Assembly (NCBI RefSeq): GCF_021533195.1
Contig: NZ_JAJNKB010000008.1
Location: forward strand, 124,001-188,000
From: Portibacter marinus
GTDB taxonomy: Bacteria; Bacteroidota; Bacteroidia; Chitinophagales; Saprospiraceae
Direction of reading: 5' to 3'
Length of the DNA stretch: 64,000 nt
Each line of letters opens with the position of its first letter. The stretch's first letter is position 1. Below the pieces are notes generated by a model. The model saw nothing but the letters and a program-made list of their open reading frames with translations. It searched no databases and was not told the DNA's origin. Both the position numbers and the translations under genes were made by a program. Of the stretch, positions 30,768 to 36,707 are shown one piece after another.

Positions 30768-32888
30768 ATGAACAAACTGATACTTTCTCTTTTCTTTACA
30801 ATGGTACTTTGCATAAGTGTCAATGCTCAGTTTGGTGTTCCCTTAAACGATATTTGCCTACAGTCCTTTCGTTTAAATGATTTAGAAAACTTTTGCAGTG
30901 ATGATGTAGATATGTTCTCAAGCGAAGGGGCAACAATCGATACTACGGCAGGCTTAGGATGTCAGTCTTCATTTCAACCTTTAGGAGTCTGGTATAATTT
31001 CACAGCCATCACTAAGTTTGTAAGGATCACTATAGAAGGGCAGGATGCCAATAATGGCTTACTCCTAACCAATCCCATCATCGGTATTTACGAAGGAAGT
31101 TGTGGTAACCTATCAGAACTCAATTGTGTAACAACACCTACTGGGGTCAATATTGGAGAAGTGATTATTCCTACTGTGGTAGGTCGCACTTACTATTTAA
31201 TGATTGGTGGTAAGAATGCTTCTGTAGGTTCGTTCAGGCTTTGTCTGAATAGTTTCAATGTTGATCCAGTGCCATTACAAGATTGTGCCCAGGCAAGGAT
31301 ACTATGTGATAAATCTCCCATCGGCGTAGAAAGTGTTGTCGGATTCGGTAATACAAGAGATAATTTAAACCTTAACTCCAATCCAGCGATCCAATTTCCA
31401 GCCTGTGGGGTGGAAGAGGCTGCAAGTAATTGGTATAAGTGGACTTGCGACGAATCTGGTACCTTGGAATTTACGATCACACCTTTAAAACAATTTGATG
31501 ACATAGACTTCATGGTCTATGAATTTCCTGACGGACTGGAAAACTGCAATTCTAAAGTTCTACTAAGAAATATGATTTCCGGTGAGAATCAGGGCCAACC
31601 CATGAGTCAATGGCAAGTTTGTGTGGGCCCAACTGGTTTGATGGCTGGCGATGGTGATGATGGAGAAACTTGTGGATGTCAAAATGGTGATAATAACTTC
31701 GCCAATGCTATTCAAATGGAATCGGGAAAATCATACGGGCTGGTCGTTATGAATTTCTCACAAAGTGGGGTAGGATATAATCTCGAATTTGGAGGTACCG
31801 GTACTTTCTTAGGCCCAATTCCTGAATTTAGTATTGACCCTATAGTAGGACTGAGATGTGATCAGTCCTTTACGATCGAAGATAGAAGTAGAGATAATGG
31901 GAATCCCCTGGAGTATAATTGGTACTTCGGAGAGGATGCGACACCGCAAACAAGCACAGAAGCCGGTCCTTTTCAAGTAGATTATTCGTCTTTTGGTACT
32001 AAATACATTGTATTAAGTGTGGTAGATCCGGTCAACGGCTGCGAGGTTACTGAAATTTTTGACATATATGCAGAACCCTGTTGTGAGGATATAGAGCCTT
32101 TGATACCGAATCTCGTCCAGGCTACAGATCCCACTTGTCCCAATTTTGGAGATGGTTCATTAGAAGTCGCGGCCTCTGGTGGCTCAAACTCAGGATACAG
32201 CTTTTCTATTAATGGCAGTCCTTTTGTTATGGGATCGGAATTTAATAATCTGCCGGACGGAACTTACCAGATAGATGTAGTCGATAGCAAAGGTTGTGAA
32301 GGTAGTATCGATATAAACTTGGAAGACCCTGATTCTATTATTGTTGATGCCGGAATTGACTCAATTGTAGATCTGGGAGATATGATAAATTTGGAAGGAC
32401 AGATTATTAGTGACAATGGGAGAGATTTCGATATCGTATGGACGTGGAACTCCGATGGAACGACCGTCAGTTGTGTCAATTGTTTGGATCCCAATGTATT
32501 TCCTTTTGGCGCGACTGAATTTACATTAACAGCAATTGATGAGTTTGGCTGTACCTTTTCTGATCGAGTCACCATCGATGTGGATTTAGATTATCCTTTA
32601 TACATCCCCAATATATTTTCTCCAAATGAAGATGGTATAAATGACAGGTTTACAGCTTATAGTGGCATTTCAGTTCAAGAAATAGTTTTATTAAGAATTT
32701 TTGACAGGTGGGGAAACCAGGTCTACGAAGAGCGAAACTTCCCACACAATGATCCGACAAGAGGTTGGGACGGAAGTTTTGGAAGTGCTTTAGCTGAACA
32801 AGGAGTCTATTCCTTTATATTTGAAGTTCAATTTATAGATAACTTGCCTCCCCGACAATATTCTGGTGACATCACCTTGATCCGATGA
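30768..32888 (+). CDS. T9SS-exported surface protein with PKD domain and gliding-motility-type C terminus
   Basis: A 706-residue secreted protein with a signal peptide (cleavage near SVNAQF). The N-terminal half has two Cys-containing beta domains of the kind found in Bacteroidota adhesin-like proteins (GVWYNFTAITKFVRITIEG, ASNWYKWTCDESGTLEFTI). A PKD-like domain follows at ~355-435 (LEYNWYFGEDATPQ) and a SprB-repeat-like segment at ~450-520 (GSLEVAASGGS). The last ~90 residues are the gliding-associated type B sorting domain (IPNIFSPNEDGINDRF, LLRIFDRWGNQVYEE). Its stop codon overlaps the UbiA start by ATGA. Confidence 0.88.
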   Translation: MNKLILSLFFTMVLCISVNAQFGVPLNDICLQSFRLNDLENFCSDDVDMFSSEGATIDTTAGLGCQSSFQPLGVWYNFTAITKFVRITIEGQDANNGLLLTNPIIGIYEGSCGNLSELNCVTTPTGVNIGEVIIPTVVGRTYYLMIGGKNASVGSFRLCLNSFNVDPVPLQDCAQARILCDKSPIGVESVVGFGNTRDNLNLNSNPAIQFPACGVEEAASNWYKWTCDESGTLEFTITPLKQFDDIDFMVYEFPDGLENCNSKVLLRNMISGENQGQPMSQWQVCVGPTGLMAGDGDDGETCGCQNGDNNFANAIQMESGKSYGLVVMNFSQSGVGYNLEFGGTGTFLGPIPEFSIDPIVGLRCDQSFTIEDRSRDNGNPLEYNWYFGEDATPQTSTEAGPFQVDYSSFGTKYIVLSVVDPVNGCEVTEIFDIYAEPCCEDIEPLIPNLVQATDPTCPNFGDGSLEVAASGGSNSGYSFSINGSPFVMGSEFNNLPDGTYQIDVVDSKGCEGSIDINLEDPDSIIVDAGIDSIVDLGDMINLEGQIISDNGRDFDIVWTWNSDGTTVSCVNCLDPNVFPFGATEFTLTAIDEFGCTFSDRVTIDVDLDYPLYIPNIFSPNEDGINDRFTAYSGISVQEIVLLRIFDRWGNQVYEERNFPHNDPTRGWDGSFGSALAEQGVYSFIFEVQFIDNLPPRQYSGDITLIR

Positions 32889-33754
32889 CCATTTATAAGA
32901 GCACGCTTAAGTTATTGCGATTACCTTTTTCCATCAACTTATTACCCATCTTTCTTTTTGCTGTTTATTCTGCTATTGGAGGACTGATACCATGGAAAAC
33001 AGCGCTTGTTTTCTTTGTCATTCACTTTATTTTTTATCCAGCCAGTAATGCCTACAATAGCTACATGGATCGCGATTCTGGCAGTATTGCAGGACTCAAA
33101 ACACCTCCAAAACCTACAAGGCAACTTTTTCAGGTGTCCGTTTTTCTTGACATTGCAGGAATTTTGCTAAGTCTTCTGGTGGGATGGCAATTCACCCTCA
33201 TAAATATTCTATTAGTAGCTTTATCCAGAGCCTATAGTTGGAGAAAAATACGTATTAAAAAATATGCTGTTCCGGGCTTTTTGATGGTTTCGTTAGCACA
33301 GGGAGGAATGAGCTATTACAATATGTATATGGGCATTCAGGGCCTTAATTATTTTCCTGCTATGGAAGGTGACCTGGCGATTGGATTCATCATTTGCTCA
33401 TTATTTGTAGGTACCATTTATCCTATTACACAGATATATCAACACGCGGATGATCGCAGCGATGGTATTCGCTCTATGAGTATGTTATTGGGGATAAAAG
33501 GTACATTTATTTTTTCAGGAGTGCTATTTATTGTTGCCAATGGGCTTTTGTATAAAATCCTTGAATTCAATGAGTTTCTGATTTTTATAGGCTTTATGAT
33601 TTTACCTGCGGTATATTTTATGTATTGGATGATTATTTCCTGGCAACAACCGGAATACGCCGATTTTCGAAGAACCATGATAATGGCCTTGGGAGCCTCA
33701 ATTGCCATGATATTGGGTTTTGCGATCATATTGATCTCTTTGTTTTCTTCATAA
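32885..33754 (+). CDS. UbiA-superfamily membrane prenyltransferase
   Basis: Predicted membrane aromatic prenyltransferase with about eight or nine helices in 289 residues. The first acidic motif is the variant NSYMDRD (Asn58, Asp62, Asp64) and the second is DDRSDG (Asp189, Asp190, Asp193). In UbiA enzymes these bind Mg-diphosphate of the prenyl donor. The first motif is shortened relative to NDxxDxxxD. It overlaps the T9SS protein gene by ATGA and is followed after 76 bases by a type III polyketide synthase. That context suggests prenylation of a polyketide phenol rather than menaquinone or heme synthesis. Confidence 0.85.
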   Translation: MTIYKSTLKLLRLPFSINLLPIFLFAVYSAIGGLIPWKTALVFFVIHFIFYPASNAYNSYMDRDSGSIAGLKTPPKPTRQLFQVSVFLDIAGILLSLLVGWQFTLINILLVALSRAYSWRKIRIKKYAVPGFLMVSLAQGGMSYYNMYMGIQGLNYFPAMEGDLAIGFIICSLFVGTIYPITQIYQHADDRSDGIRSMSMLLGIKGTFIFSGVLFIVANGLLYKILEFNEFLIFIGFMILPAVYFMYWMIISWQQPEYADFRRTMIMALGASIAMILGFAIILISLFSS

Positions 33755-33781
33755 GAAACCTAATTGTGAGCAATTGCCGTA

Positions 33782-33808
33782 TTTGTAAAAAATAATCCCT
33801 TATTTTGC
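33782..33808 (+). promoter_or_regulatory. Possible promoter of the type III polyketide synthase gene
   Basis: TTTG at 33782-33785 and TATTTTGC at 33801-33808 resemble the Bacteroidota -33 and -7 elements, with a slightly short 15-bp spacer. It lies in the 76-bp gap before the polyketide synthase ATG at 33831. Speculative. Confidence 0.25.
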
Positions 33809-33830
33809 TATTTCGTGATAAATTGACTAG

Positions 33831-34919
33831 ATGAGCTTTATTAATTCAATTGGAATTGCAAATCCCGCTTATAAATCTGAGCAAATGCAGATTTACGAGT
33901 ATATGATAGGAGCTATTCCTTTCAATGAAAGAGAGCGAAAAATATTAAAGTATCTATATAAGAAAAGTGGTATCAATAGCAGATATTCCGTTCTGCCTGA
34001 TTTTTCTAATTCCAATGGAACTGAGCGTTTCTATAACGAAAAAAATAACTTCAATCCTAGAGTAGAAAATCGATTATCTAAATATGACGATGCCTCACTT
34101 CCATTGGCCACTAAAGCCATAAGTAATTGTCTTCTAGATTCTAATGTGAGGAGTGAAGAAATAACTCATCTCATAACGATTTCTTGTACAGGAATGTCCG
34201 CACCTGGAATGGATACAGAAATCATCAGAGATCTAAAGCTGAACACGAATTTGCAGAGATTCAACATTACCTTTATGGGGTGCTTTGCAGCGATCAATGG
34301 CCTTAAACTAGCACATACCATTTGCAAGGCTGAACCCAATGCAAAAGTATTGGTTGTATCCGTTGAACTTTGCACTTTGCATTTTCAAAATGAAATTTCT
34401 GAGGACTATAATCTTTCCAATATGTTATTTGCTGACGGTGCTGCTGCGACAATTGTGACTAGTCAACCTTTGAATGGAAGAGCCTTATCAATCCACGGAT
34501 TTCATTCTGAAATTAATGATGATGGCGTGAAGGATATGAGTTGGAACATCAGTTCTTCAGGCTTTTTGATGAAACTGAGTTCTTATGTACCCGCTCTTCT
34601 GAAAACAGGCTTTAAGGGTGTCATTGACAAGGTTTTAGAACATTACCAACTAAAATACGATGATCTTCAGTACTGGGCCATCCATCCGGGTGGTAAACGA
34701 ATTCTTGACAATATTGAAAAAGAATTTCATTTAGAAGTGAAGAAACTAGAAGCAAGTCGAGAAGTACTAAGAGAATTTGGCAACATGTCATCCCCTACGA
34801 TTCTTTTCGTACTTAAAAATTTGTTGGAGAATGGCCATATACAAAAAGGACAGTATATTTTTACTGCTGCCTTTGGGCCTGGATTAACCACTGAAACGGC
34901 TTTGCTGAGTTATGCCTGA
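33831..34919 (+). CDS. Type III polyketide synthase (chalcone/stilbene synthase family)
   Basis: Homodimeric ketosynthase that extends a CoA- or ACP-bound acyl starter with malonyl-CoA and cyclises it to a resorcinol, phloroglucinol or pyrone. The complete catalytic triad is visible: Cys151 in TFMGCFAAING, His285 in WAIHPGGKR and Asn318 in EFGNMSSPT. The C-terminal AFGPGLTTE corresponds to the family GFGPG loop. It is 362 residues, normal for bacterial members. FabH is excluded by the length and the GNMSSPT motif. It precedes a methyltransferase (8-base overlap) and an FAD enzyme, a layout like bacterial alkylresorcinol/quinone operons such as srs. Confidence 0.93.
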   Translation: MSFINSIGIANPAYKSEQMQIYEYMIGAIPFNERERKILKYLYKKSGINSRYSVLPDFSNSNGTERFYNEKNNFNPRVENRLSKYDDASLPLATKAISNCLLDSNVRSEEITHLITISCTGMSAPGMDTEIIRDLKLNTNLQRFNITFMGCFAAINGLKLAHTICKAEPNAKVLVVSVELCTLHFQNEISEDYNLSNMLFADGAAATIVTSQPLNGRALSIHGFHSEINDDGVKDMSWNISSSGFLMKLSSYVPALLKTGFKGVIDKVLEHYQLKYDDLQYWAIHPGGKRILDNIEKEFHLEVKKLEASREVLREFGNMSSPTILFVLKNLLENGHIQKGQYIFTAAFGPGLTTETALLSYA

Positions 34920-35586
34920 TTTTTCAACACGTTCTTACGAGAAGGAATTATTGGATCAGGAGAATATTCCGTTTGCTGATATTGCTGTAACCCTGGATGA
35001 GTTGCATTTTATAAATACTTATTTGGGTGGCTACAACGCAACTAGATATGGTCTTAACAAACTGATCAAAGGTCAGAAAAAATTAAAGATTGCAGATATC
35101 GGTTGCGGAGGAGGACATCACTTGATTCAAATTGATCAATGGTGTACTGCGAATCAAATCAGTTGTGATCTGGTAGGTATAGACATGAAAAAAGAGTGCA
35201 CGGACTACGCTGCTGAGCAAACTGCAGATTTGCCGAATGTAAGGTATATTACCAGTGATTACCGATTGGTCGATGAAGAATTTGACCTGATCAACAGCTG
35301 CCTGTTTACACATCATCTTAATGAAAAGGAGTTAGATGAATACATCATTTGGGCAAGGAATCACAGTAGAGTAGGGGTGATCATCAATGACTTACACAGA
35401 CATCCATTGGCCTACCACGCTATAAGAATTTTGACCCAACTATTTTCCAGATCTTATCTGGTAAAAAACGACGCAAGCTTGTCTGTTCTGCGATCTTTCA
35501 AGGCTAAGGAGTGGAAAAAAAGAGTGCCAGGTTGTGAGGTGCACTGGAACTGGGCTTTCAGATATACAACCATCATCAGGCCATGA
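34912..35586 (+). CDS. Class I SAM-dependent methyltransferase
   Basis: Predicted cytosolic methyltransferase of 224 residues. Motif I is KIADIGCGGGHHL near residues 59-71, motif II is LVGIDMKKECTDYA, and the motif-IV region is FDLINSCLFTHHL. The start overlaps the polyketide synthase stop region by eight bases and the end overlaps the FAD enzyme by four, so it is coupled to both. It probably methylates a hydroxyl or ring carbon of the polyketide product (inference from context). It is unlike SrsB of Streptomyces, which is a membrane methyltransferase. Confidence 0.85.
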   Translation: MPDFSTRSYEKELLDQENIPFADIAVTLDELHFINTYLGGYNATRYGLNKLIKGQKKLKIADIGCGGGHHLIQIDQWCTANQISCDLVGIDMKKECTDYAAEQTADLPNVRYITSDYRLVDEEFDLINSCLFTHHLNEKELDEYIIWARNHSRVGVIINDLHRHPLAYHAIRILTQLFSRSYLVKNDASLSVLRSFKAKEWKKRVPGCEVHWNWAFRYTTIIRP

Positions 35587-36707
35587 AGACAAATTATGAC
35601 CTGGGAATCATAGGAGGTGGACTGGCCGGATTAACTCTGGCTATTCAGCTATCGATAAACGGACAACACGTAATACTCTTTGAAAAAAACGAATTTCCAT
35701 TTCACAAGTTATGTGGTGAATACTTGTCCAACGAATCTATCCCTTTTTTGGAATATTTGGGATTAGATGTTACCTCGTTACAACCAGCAAAAATTAATAG
35801 ACTGGAATTGACCAATGCCAGTGGTAAGAACCTGACTTCTGATCTGCCTCTGGGTGGAATAGGCCTCTCACGCTGGACGTTAGACCATAAATTATATGAT
35901 TTAGCAAAATCACAGGGCGTGACGATGAAGGAGGGGACTTTTGTCAAATCATACTCAGGATCTCCCGGTGCGTTTGAAATTAAAACGAGTGAAGAAGTGA
36001 TCACTTGCGACCATCTGGTATCCTGTTTTGGTAAAAAATCAAATCTTAAGGGAATCAATCAATCAGGTGTTGAGCATAAAAATGAGTATGTCGGCGTAAA
36101 GTATCACGTTCGATATCCAAATCAACCCGCTGATCTGGTAAGCTTGCACAATTTTAAAGAGGGCTATTGCGGCGTTTGTAGACTAGAAAAAGATTGGGTT
36201 TCTGTTTGCTACTTATCACATACCAGTAATCTTACGCAGGGACTTGCGAAAATGGAAGAGCAGGTCCTGTTTCAGAATGCGCGAATAAAGGAAGTTTTTC
36301 AAAATTGTGATTTTGTATATGAAAAACCCATCACCGTTTCTAATATACATTTCAGGAAGAAAAGATTGATCAAAGATGGGGTCTTTTACGCCGGTGATGC
36401 TGCAGGATTGATCACTCCACTTTCCGGTAATGGAATGTCAATGGCCATGCAGGCTTCATATATTTTAGGTCAATTGTTGATCAAACATTTCCAAGGTGAC
36501 ATTTCCCGTCAACAAGTCTATTCGCAGTATCAAACCAAGTGGAATAATGCCTTCAAATTTAGAATGGCTACAGGAAGAACCATCCAGAAACTATTGAGAA
36601 AAGAAAAAAATGCAGATAGATTGATCTCAGCAGTCAATGCTTTTCCTTTTCTTAAAAAATCGATGATCAGTTTGACGCATGGGAAACCATTTTGTTCTAA
36701 TGATTAA
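35583..36707 (+). CDS. FAD-dependent oxidoreductase, geranylgeranyl-reductase / aromatic-hydroxylase type
   Basis: Flavoprotein of the PHBH-like fold. The dinucleotide-binding motif is LGIIGGGLAGLTLA at 8-21, the CGE motif is at Cys44-Glu46 in HKLCGEYLSNE, and the second FAD motif is YAGDAAGLITPLSGNGMSM, near residue 280. CGE-containing members include geranylgeranyl reductases and ring hydroxylases, so it may hydroxylate the polyketide ring or saturate the prenyl chain; sequence alone does not decide. At 374 residues it is typical. It is the last gene of the coupled polyketide unit. Confidence 0.85.
   Translation: MKTNYDLGIIGGGLAGLTLAIQLSINGQHVILFEKNEFPFHKLCGEYLSNESIPFLEYLGLDVTSLQPAKINRLELTNASGKNLTSDLPLGGIGLSRWTLDHKLYDLAKSQGVTMKEGTFVKSYSGSPGAFEIKTSEEVITCDHLVSCFGKKSNLKGINQSGVEHKNEYVGVKYHVRYPNQPADLVSLHNFKEGYCGVCRLEKDWVSVCYLSHTSNLTQGLAKMEEQVLFQNARIKEVFQNCDFVYEKPITVSNIHFRKKRLIKDGVFYAGDAAGLITPLSGNGMSMAMQASYILGQLLIKHFQGDISRQQVYSQYQTKWNNAFKFRMATGRTIQKLLRKEKNADRLISAVNAFPFLKKSMISLTHGKPFCSND

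Follow-up and report, generated by a model that had tools for sequence, protein, structure and literature searches.

Widespread co-occurrence of a type III polyketide synthase and a divergent UbiA-superfamily prenyltransferase in Bacteroidota, and a probable four-gene route to a prenylated polyketide lipid

The srs phenolic-lipid operon of Streptomyces griseus encodes a polyketide synthase (PKS), a methyltransferase (SrsB, a membrane protein) and a flavoprotein hydroxylase, and is not known to include a UbiA gene. In the plant cannabinoid route, the product of a type III PKS is prenylated by a UbiA-type enzyme. Among the described bacterial systems, and as far as the accessible parts of the sources go, the three-gene pkq machinery of Mycobacterium smegmatis and Streptomyces sp. 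MNU77 makes polyketide quinones that act as an alternative electron carrier (PMC9927152); planctomycete synthases expressed in Corynebacterium yield pentadecyl- and heptadecylresorcinols, C-methylation being probable for the planctomycete operon (PMC10896814); and a hierridin-like cluster of Raphidiopsis that includes a prenyltransferase is called unique (PMC8086630). We analysed a 64,000-nucleotide stretch of the Portibacter marinus genome (contig NZ_JAJNKB010000008.1, positions 124,001 to 188,000; hereafter the window) in which genes for a UbiA-superfamily protein, a type III PKS, a methyltransferase (MT) and a flavin adenine dinucleotide (FAD)-dependent oxidoreductase follow one another. 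The genes of this set belong together, and they probably serve a single pathway in which the PKS, MT and FAD enzymes would make a methylated, oxidised polyketide lipid that UbiA would then prenylate.

Open reading frame calls gave four intact genes on the forward strand, as the original prediction had it:

32885-33754, + strand: UbiA-superfamily membrane prenyltransferase of a divergent subfamily (289 amino acids; Pfam UbiA)
33831-34919, + strand: type III PKS (362 amino acids; Pfam Chal_sti_synt N and C)
34912-35586, + strand: class I S-adenosylmethionine-dependent MT (224 amino acids; Pfam Methyltransf_25)
35583-36707, + strand: FAD-dependent oxidoreductase of the group A monooxygenase / geranylgeranyl reductase superfamily (374 amino acids; Pfam FAD_binding_3)

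A gap of 76 bases separates UbiA from the PKS gene. The other claims made from the sequence also held: the PKS and MT genes overlap by 8 bases (34912-34919) and the MT and FAD genes by 4 (35583-35586); the catalytic triad Cys151-His285-Asn318 of the synthase is identical in 64 of 64 aligned synthases, and all 28 aligned FAD sequences keep the CGE motif (residues 44-46), the window being included in both alignments. All four proteins exceeded the curated Pfam cut-offs (UbiA, 66.5 bits against a cut-off of 34.2; Chal_sti_synt N, 84.1, and C, 87.3; Methyltransf_25, 39.5; FAD_binding_3, 70.1). Chalcone synthase fold domains above the cut-off, together with the Cys-His-Asn triad, mark the second protein as a type III PKS, and the PKS, MT and oxidoreductase genes lie side by side on one strand, which is the pkq-type layout.

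A scan of contigs confirmed 564 relatives, of which the best 80 were kept; these are the nearest named Bacteroidota loci rather than a random sample, and among them Portibacter lacus is the closest named relative (its synthase is 70% identical). The complete set is present in 33 of the 80 loci. The UbiA-PKS-MT-FAD order and strand of the window were kept in 29, so the arrangement exceeds chance; the other four read FAD, reversed UbiA, PKS, MT. A further 34 loci carried FAD-PKS-MT without a nearby UbiA, all but one of them from Hymenobacter, Pontibacter or Rufibacter, and 13 showed other or partial arrangements, with a contig end no more than 1.4 kb from the synthase in six (L056, L059, L061, L069, L074 and L089). 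Overall, UbiA lay inside the fetched stretch in 38 of the 80 loci, an MT relative was present in 71 and an FAD relative in 70. When UbiA was not nearby (42 loci), the genome held exactly one match elsewhere in 41 cases (E 4e-91 or better), and three of these 41 matches contain one stop codon. The only UbiA-less genome of the 42, that of Pontibacter harenae, still gave no match at E 1e-5.

Genome samples extended this picture. In an order sample of 198 genomes (synthase clade at 200 bits or more; UbiA at E 1e-12 or better), the synthase was found in 35 genomes, UbiA in 35, and both in 32. The synthase occurred without UbiA in G153 and G158 (72 and 74% complete) and in G174 (100% complete), and UbiA without the synthase in G116, G198 and G142, the last of which has a partial synthase match (149 bits). 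In a phylum sample of 296 Bacteroidota genomes (UbiA at E 1e-20 or better; synthase at E 1e-50 or better), UbiA was present in 46 genomes and the synthase in all 46. The synthase itself was present in 132, 57 of them with 378 bits or more, a cut drawn after the scores were seen. The 46 UbiA genomes split into 20 with close relatives (at least 322 bits) and 26 with distant ones (101-142 bits), all 26 belonging to family f43. Four distant f43 UbiA proteins that were inspected share an NSxxDxDxGPIGGLK signature and have no His after the Gln of the second motif. Thus, the co-occurrence across Bacteroidota that had been proposed as a check of the four-gene neighbourhood was found, the synthase clade and the UbiA subfamily tracking each other even when unlinked; within the sampled genomes, this UbiA subfamily is almost confined to those with the synthase clade. 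As for the layout in f43, which belongs to another class, the distant UbiA is located away from the synthase (e.g. L148, L150, L152 and L154), and the f43 synthases have a divergent MT next to them (82-104 bits in three loci).

A quick tree of 64 synthases, which carried long-branch and composition warnings, placed the window synthase in a clade of 32 rows (SH-aLRT, an approximate likelihood ratio test, 98). Twenty-nine of these rows come from UbiA-positive genomes (L037 by a gene cut at the contig end), two are UbiA-negative and one, a Psychrobacter plasmid, is of unknown state; elsewhere in the tree, UbiA occurs only in family f43. The UbiA state changes five times on this tree. So few changes, together with the fact that the co-occurrence counts ignore phylogeny, fit an explanation by which unrelated genes were simply inherited side by side within these lineages, and neighbourhood and co-occurrence reflect no more than that. 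This is nevertheless highly improbable, since the UbiA-synthase pair is kept through different gene orders and unlinked arrangements, since five genomes of the window's own family that have the other synthase group lack UbiA (E 1e-5), and since none of the six f20 family genomes listed as lacking the synthase is listed as having UbiA.

That the counts take no account of shared ancestry is the first of several points that weigh against a single four-gene pathway; the Fisher p values ignore it too, and were given no weight as evidence. UbiA and the synthase are unlinked in many genomes, and a comparison at E 1e-10 matched neither PKS nor MT nor FAD in ten unlinked UbiA regions, five of which, all from Hymenobacteraceae, have several neighbours in common. 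Eleven of the 57 high-scoring synthase genomes lack UbiA at E 1e-20, and the two UbiA-negative rows of the synthase clade are P. harenae and G174, the latter with the synthase and with no UbiA at E 1e-5. At L097, L120 and L034, UbiA stands beside the PKS gene with no MT or FAD gene in ∼20 kb. Across 12 genomes with incomplete sets, the FAD enzyme was matched in nine (E 1e-40) and the MT in seven (E 1e-10): the genomes of L097, L120 and L047 matched the FAD enzyme and not the MT, and those of Microscilla (L064, UbiA present) and G222 matched neither at these thresholds. Some of the FAD matches in these genomes may be paralogs. Since MT and FAD are missing from some loci and genomes, UbiA and the synthase are the tightest pair, with MT and FAD as usual but not constant partners. 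These checks loosen the tie of MT and FAD to the set, leave that between UbiA and the synthase as it was, and do not alter the probabilities given to the readings. In addition, the two polyprenyl synthase matches of the host genome sit on other contigs.

The last of these points concern the UbiA protein. Its structural model (predicted local distance difference test, pLDDT, 96.4) matched UbiA homologs best (Z-scores of 22.6 for 4tq4 over 266 residues with a root-mean-square deviation of 3.4, 22.0 for 4tq3 and 21.6 for 4od4), and both profile and fold place it in the UbiA superfamily. Among 38 orthologs, the window included, N58, D62, D64, Q183, Q186, H187 and D190 are invariant. However, when compared with 4od4, motif 1 retains N58, D62 and D64 but is without its last Asp (kept in 0 of the 38), while in motif 2 the invariant Gln186 replaces the first Asp, the second position varies (Ala188 in the window) and Asp190 occupies the third. 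The window protein therefore departs from the two Asp-rich metal motifs of canonical aromatic UbiA enzymes as seen in 4od4, and its donor or chemistry may be unlike standard polyprenyl diphosphate transfer. The metal site, altered but conserved, is suggestive of an enzyme that is active but whose donor site has changed.

These residues bear on a different account, in which UbiA belongs to the pathway and does not prenylate the ring; it would make a separate isoprenoid partner, use another donor or acceptor, or have a binding or scaffold role. The altered yet invariant positions (Q186, H187 and D190 in 38 of 38) agree with it, as do the unlinked UbiA genes of many genomes and the two best Foldseek hits, which are archaeal digeranylgeranylglyceryl phosphate synthases, enzymes whose acceptor is non-aromatic. 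On the other side, UbiA adjoins the synthase in the same direction, with the full order in 29 of the 80 loci, and 4od4, named 4-hydroxybenzoate octaprenyltransferase, is also among the best matches, so the fold ranking decides neither way. A role of this kind is unlikely, if the most serious of the alternatives, and ring prenylation by UbiA remains the preferred reading.

The host genome contains six UbiA-superfamily matches, five of them above the family cut-off. One is MenA, a separate gene (280.5 bits against an NCBIfam cut-off of 102.15), and another separate gene is the heme O synthase by its NCBIfam cut-off. The window UbiA reaches no NCBIfam cut-off. It is not MenA (no menA match at E 0.01, with MenA encoded elsewhere in the genome), nor CtaB (the heme O synthase being a separate gene); an identity as EboC or Ubi-297 was also rejected, with no NCBIfam EboC match at E 0.01 and no TatD or dehydroquinate synthase match in the five neighbours scanned with Pfam. 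Because the genome encodes a separate MenA above the cut-off, besides a separate heme O synthase, the menaquinone role that the original prediction had raised as a counter-case is unlikely for this protein. Two more UbiA-superfamily proteins of the host genome (L128 and L129) scored below every NCBIfam model cut-off.

The trio also exists without UbiA. A deep second group of 11 synthases comes from genomes with no UbiA (five at E 1e-5, six at E 1e-20), and eight of these 11 loci carry MT and FAD enzymes of the same subfamilies; the FAD proteins score 436-478 bits, in the low part of the 418-614 bits of the named loci from which the FAD profile was built. Outside the clade there are 14 more UbiA-negative loci of Bacteroidota, covered by stretches of 4.9-8.5 kb: five have MT and FAD (E 1e-10), five MT only and four neither, and three of the five with both are strong (FAD, 225-242 bits). 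Plasmids of Psychrobacter, Deinococcus, Roseomonas and Methylobacterium likewise carry PKS, MT and FAD-type genes in one place, their FAD proteins being distant (150 bits at most; the Deinococcus one unmatched at E 1e-10). A search of the plasmid collection for UbiA gave no match. Since the trio occurs without UbiA in Bacteroidota and on plasmids of other phyla, PKS-MT-FAD looks like an older core to which UbiA was perhaps added as a lineage-specific fourth member. On Psychrobacter urativorans plasmid 5 (L144; NZ_CP012711.1), IS630-related and recombinase genes are located a few kb away from the PKS, FAD and MT genes. The L144 synthase falls within the Bacteroidota UbiA clade, joining its nearest rows with a support of 80, and this nesting of a synthase from a gammaproteobacterial plasmid suggests horizontal transfer. 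On plasmid 3 of Deinococcus radiodurans DRR11 (L145), a megaplasmid, PKS, MT and FAD-type oxidoreductase genes stand in a row, followed by glycosyltransferase and phospholipase D-like genes.

Because there are trios without UbiA, the FAD enzyme more likely acts on the polyketide than on a prenyl chain, although the UbiA-less genomes may have other prenyltransferases. By the opposite account it would be a reductase that works as geranylgeranyl reductases do, saturating the prenyl chain that UbiA had attached instead of hydroxylating the ring. Its best NCBIfam match is indeed to that family (GG-red-SF, 92.9 bits, below the cut-off of 158.8), and a geranylgeranyl reductase-like protein appears among the Foldseek matches of its model (pLDDT 89), along with halogenases and hydroxylases or monooxygenases. 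Yet the same FAD subfamily accompanies MT and synthase in eight loci of UbiA-negative genomes, with the caveat just given, and halogenases rank higher in the fold search. An attempt to choose between reductase and hydroxylase by fold was dropped, since halogenases, monooxygenases and the reductase-like protein rank together and the fold cannot separate the roles. Prenyl-chain reduction is very unlikely, and oxidation of the polyketide is the role retained for this enzyme in what follows. The FAD family is not diagnostic by itself because homologs exist outside the pathway: on the Hymenobacter swuensis plasmid pHsw1 (L160), a homolog has an isonitrile synthase gene nearby and a TauD-like dioxygenase gene next to it, and apparently belongs to a different pathway. 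The MT matched the NCBIfam model PRK06202 (hypothetical protein) best, at 124.3 bits, below the cut-off of 243.

The solved chain nearest to the synthase by sequence is 4b0n (E 1.6e-47). An assignment as DpgA (3,5-dihydroxyphenylacetyl-CoA synthase) was rejected at 178.5 bits against an equivalog cut-off of 425. A residue switch between ArsB (Trp281) and ArsC (Gly284) is given in the part of PMC6274091 that was available. W282 of the window synthase, an aromatic residue three positions before the catalytic His, was considered as such a cyclisation switch and discarded, since Trp is also found there in several chalcone synthases, CylI and PKS18, and the ArsB/ArsC column could not be placed. With that argument dropped, the product may be a resorcinol or a pyrone. 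A gene annotated as a type III PKS in Streptomyces phage ZL12 (GQ919031.1, 80235-80957) shows 29% identity over 68% of the window synthase.

Upstream of the set, the gene at 30768-32888 encodes a large protein in which Pfam finds a CHU_C type IX secretion domain and, weakly, an SprB-like repeat. Its stop codon shares 4 bases with the UbiA ATG, an overlap that could place the four-gene set on the transcript of that gene. Pfam matches of five window neighbours were beta-lactamase-like, CHU_C, alpha/beta hydrolase, aldo-keto reductase and Amidohydro_2. The hydrolase, aldo-keto reductase and CHU_C-type genes were rejected as members of the operon, as they are not beside the set in 11 compared regions (blastp, E 1e-5); in these, the gene at 30768-32888 had no match and there was one weak hydrolase match, ∼7 kb from the set. 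In two Hymenobacteraceae loci, MT is followed ∼500 bases on by a conserved gene that, in the one scanned, encodes a histone-deacetylase-family protein; it was also left out of the set.

In the pathway proposed here, the synthase would extend an acyl starter with malonyl-CoA to give a small aromatic (or pyrone) ring with an alkyl tail, as expected from its family. By analogy with the pkq and hid trios, the MT and the FAD enzyme would methylate and hydroxylate or oxidise the ring. UbiA, judging from its family and its strict co-occurrence with the synthase, would move a prenyl chain onto the polyketide in the membrane, and the end product would be a prenylated polyketide lipid or quinone. Many soil and water bacteria of the phylum have the set, and the route is kept across several Bacteroidota families, with genera such as Hymenobacter, Pontibacter and Rufibacter and members of Chitinophagaceae among them. 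This points to a widespread lipid, and the product may be a lipid or quinone not described before. Were the product a quinone, it would bear on the respiration of these bacteria, which are not known to respire on any quinone other than menaquinone. A bolder proposal, and a quite improbable one, is that much of Bacteroidota makes a second membrane quinone, a polyketide-derived benzoquinone with a prenyl tail. It would come from the trio together with a UbiA whose metal site is altered, a convergent way of reaching a ubiquinone- or plastoquinone-like molecule. The unusual metal site of UbiA is an enzymology question of its own.

As to known systems, the likeness to srs noted in the original prediction stands for the shared PKS-methyltransferase-flavoprotein logic, srs not being known to include a UbiA, but had to be corrected in that pkq, hid and the PKS-MT-oxidoreductase trios of Planctomycetota are closer in gene content. 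In the plant cannabinoid route, the work is shared out between a synthase and a membrane prenyltransferase in the same way; the tailoring enzymes differ, and homology is claimed at the superfamily level only. That a type III PKS and one UbiA subfamily are paired almost without exception points to prenylated phenolics having a counterpart in bacteria. In the available parts of the sources cited here, EboC / Ubi-297 is, like the window UbiA, a UbiA-superfamily enzyme found in Bacteroidota, but it lies in the ebo cluster and preferentially farnesylates quinoline derivatives (PMC9235831), and antiSMASH calls of type III PKS are reported for Reichenbachiella (PMC10752948). A description of the UbiA-synthase pairing in Bacteroidota was not recognised in the literature, as judged by titles and the starts of abstracts, with few subscription papers covered, nor is the conserved pairing described in the accessible parts of PMC9927152, PMC10896814, PMC8086630, PMC9235831, PMC6274091 or PMC10752948. 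The pkq trio resembles the window trio in gene content, and no word beginning with 'prenyl' occurs in the available text of PMC9927152, in contrast to the UbiA of the window. Like the window, the cyanobacterial hidABC operon for hierridin and the trio of Planctomycetota contain MT, oxidoreductase and type III PKS (PMC8086630, PMC10896814), but, in the parts available, with another gene order and no UbiA. Finally, the Raphidiopsis cluster is, as far as the accessible text goes, a single case of an added prenyltransferase, whereas the large clade described here carries UbiA as a rule.

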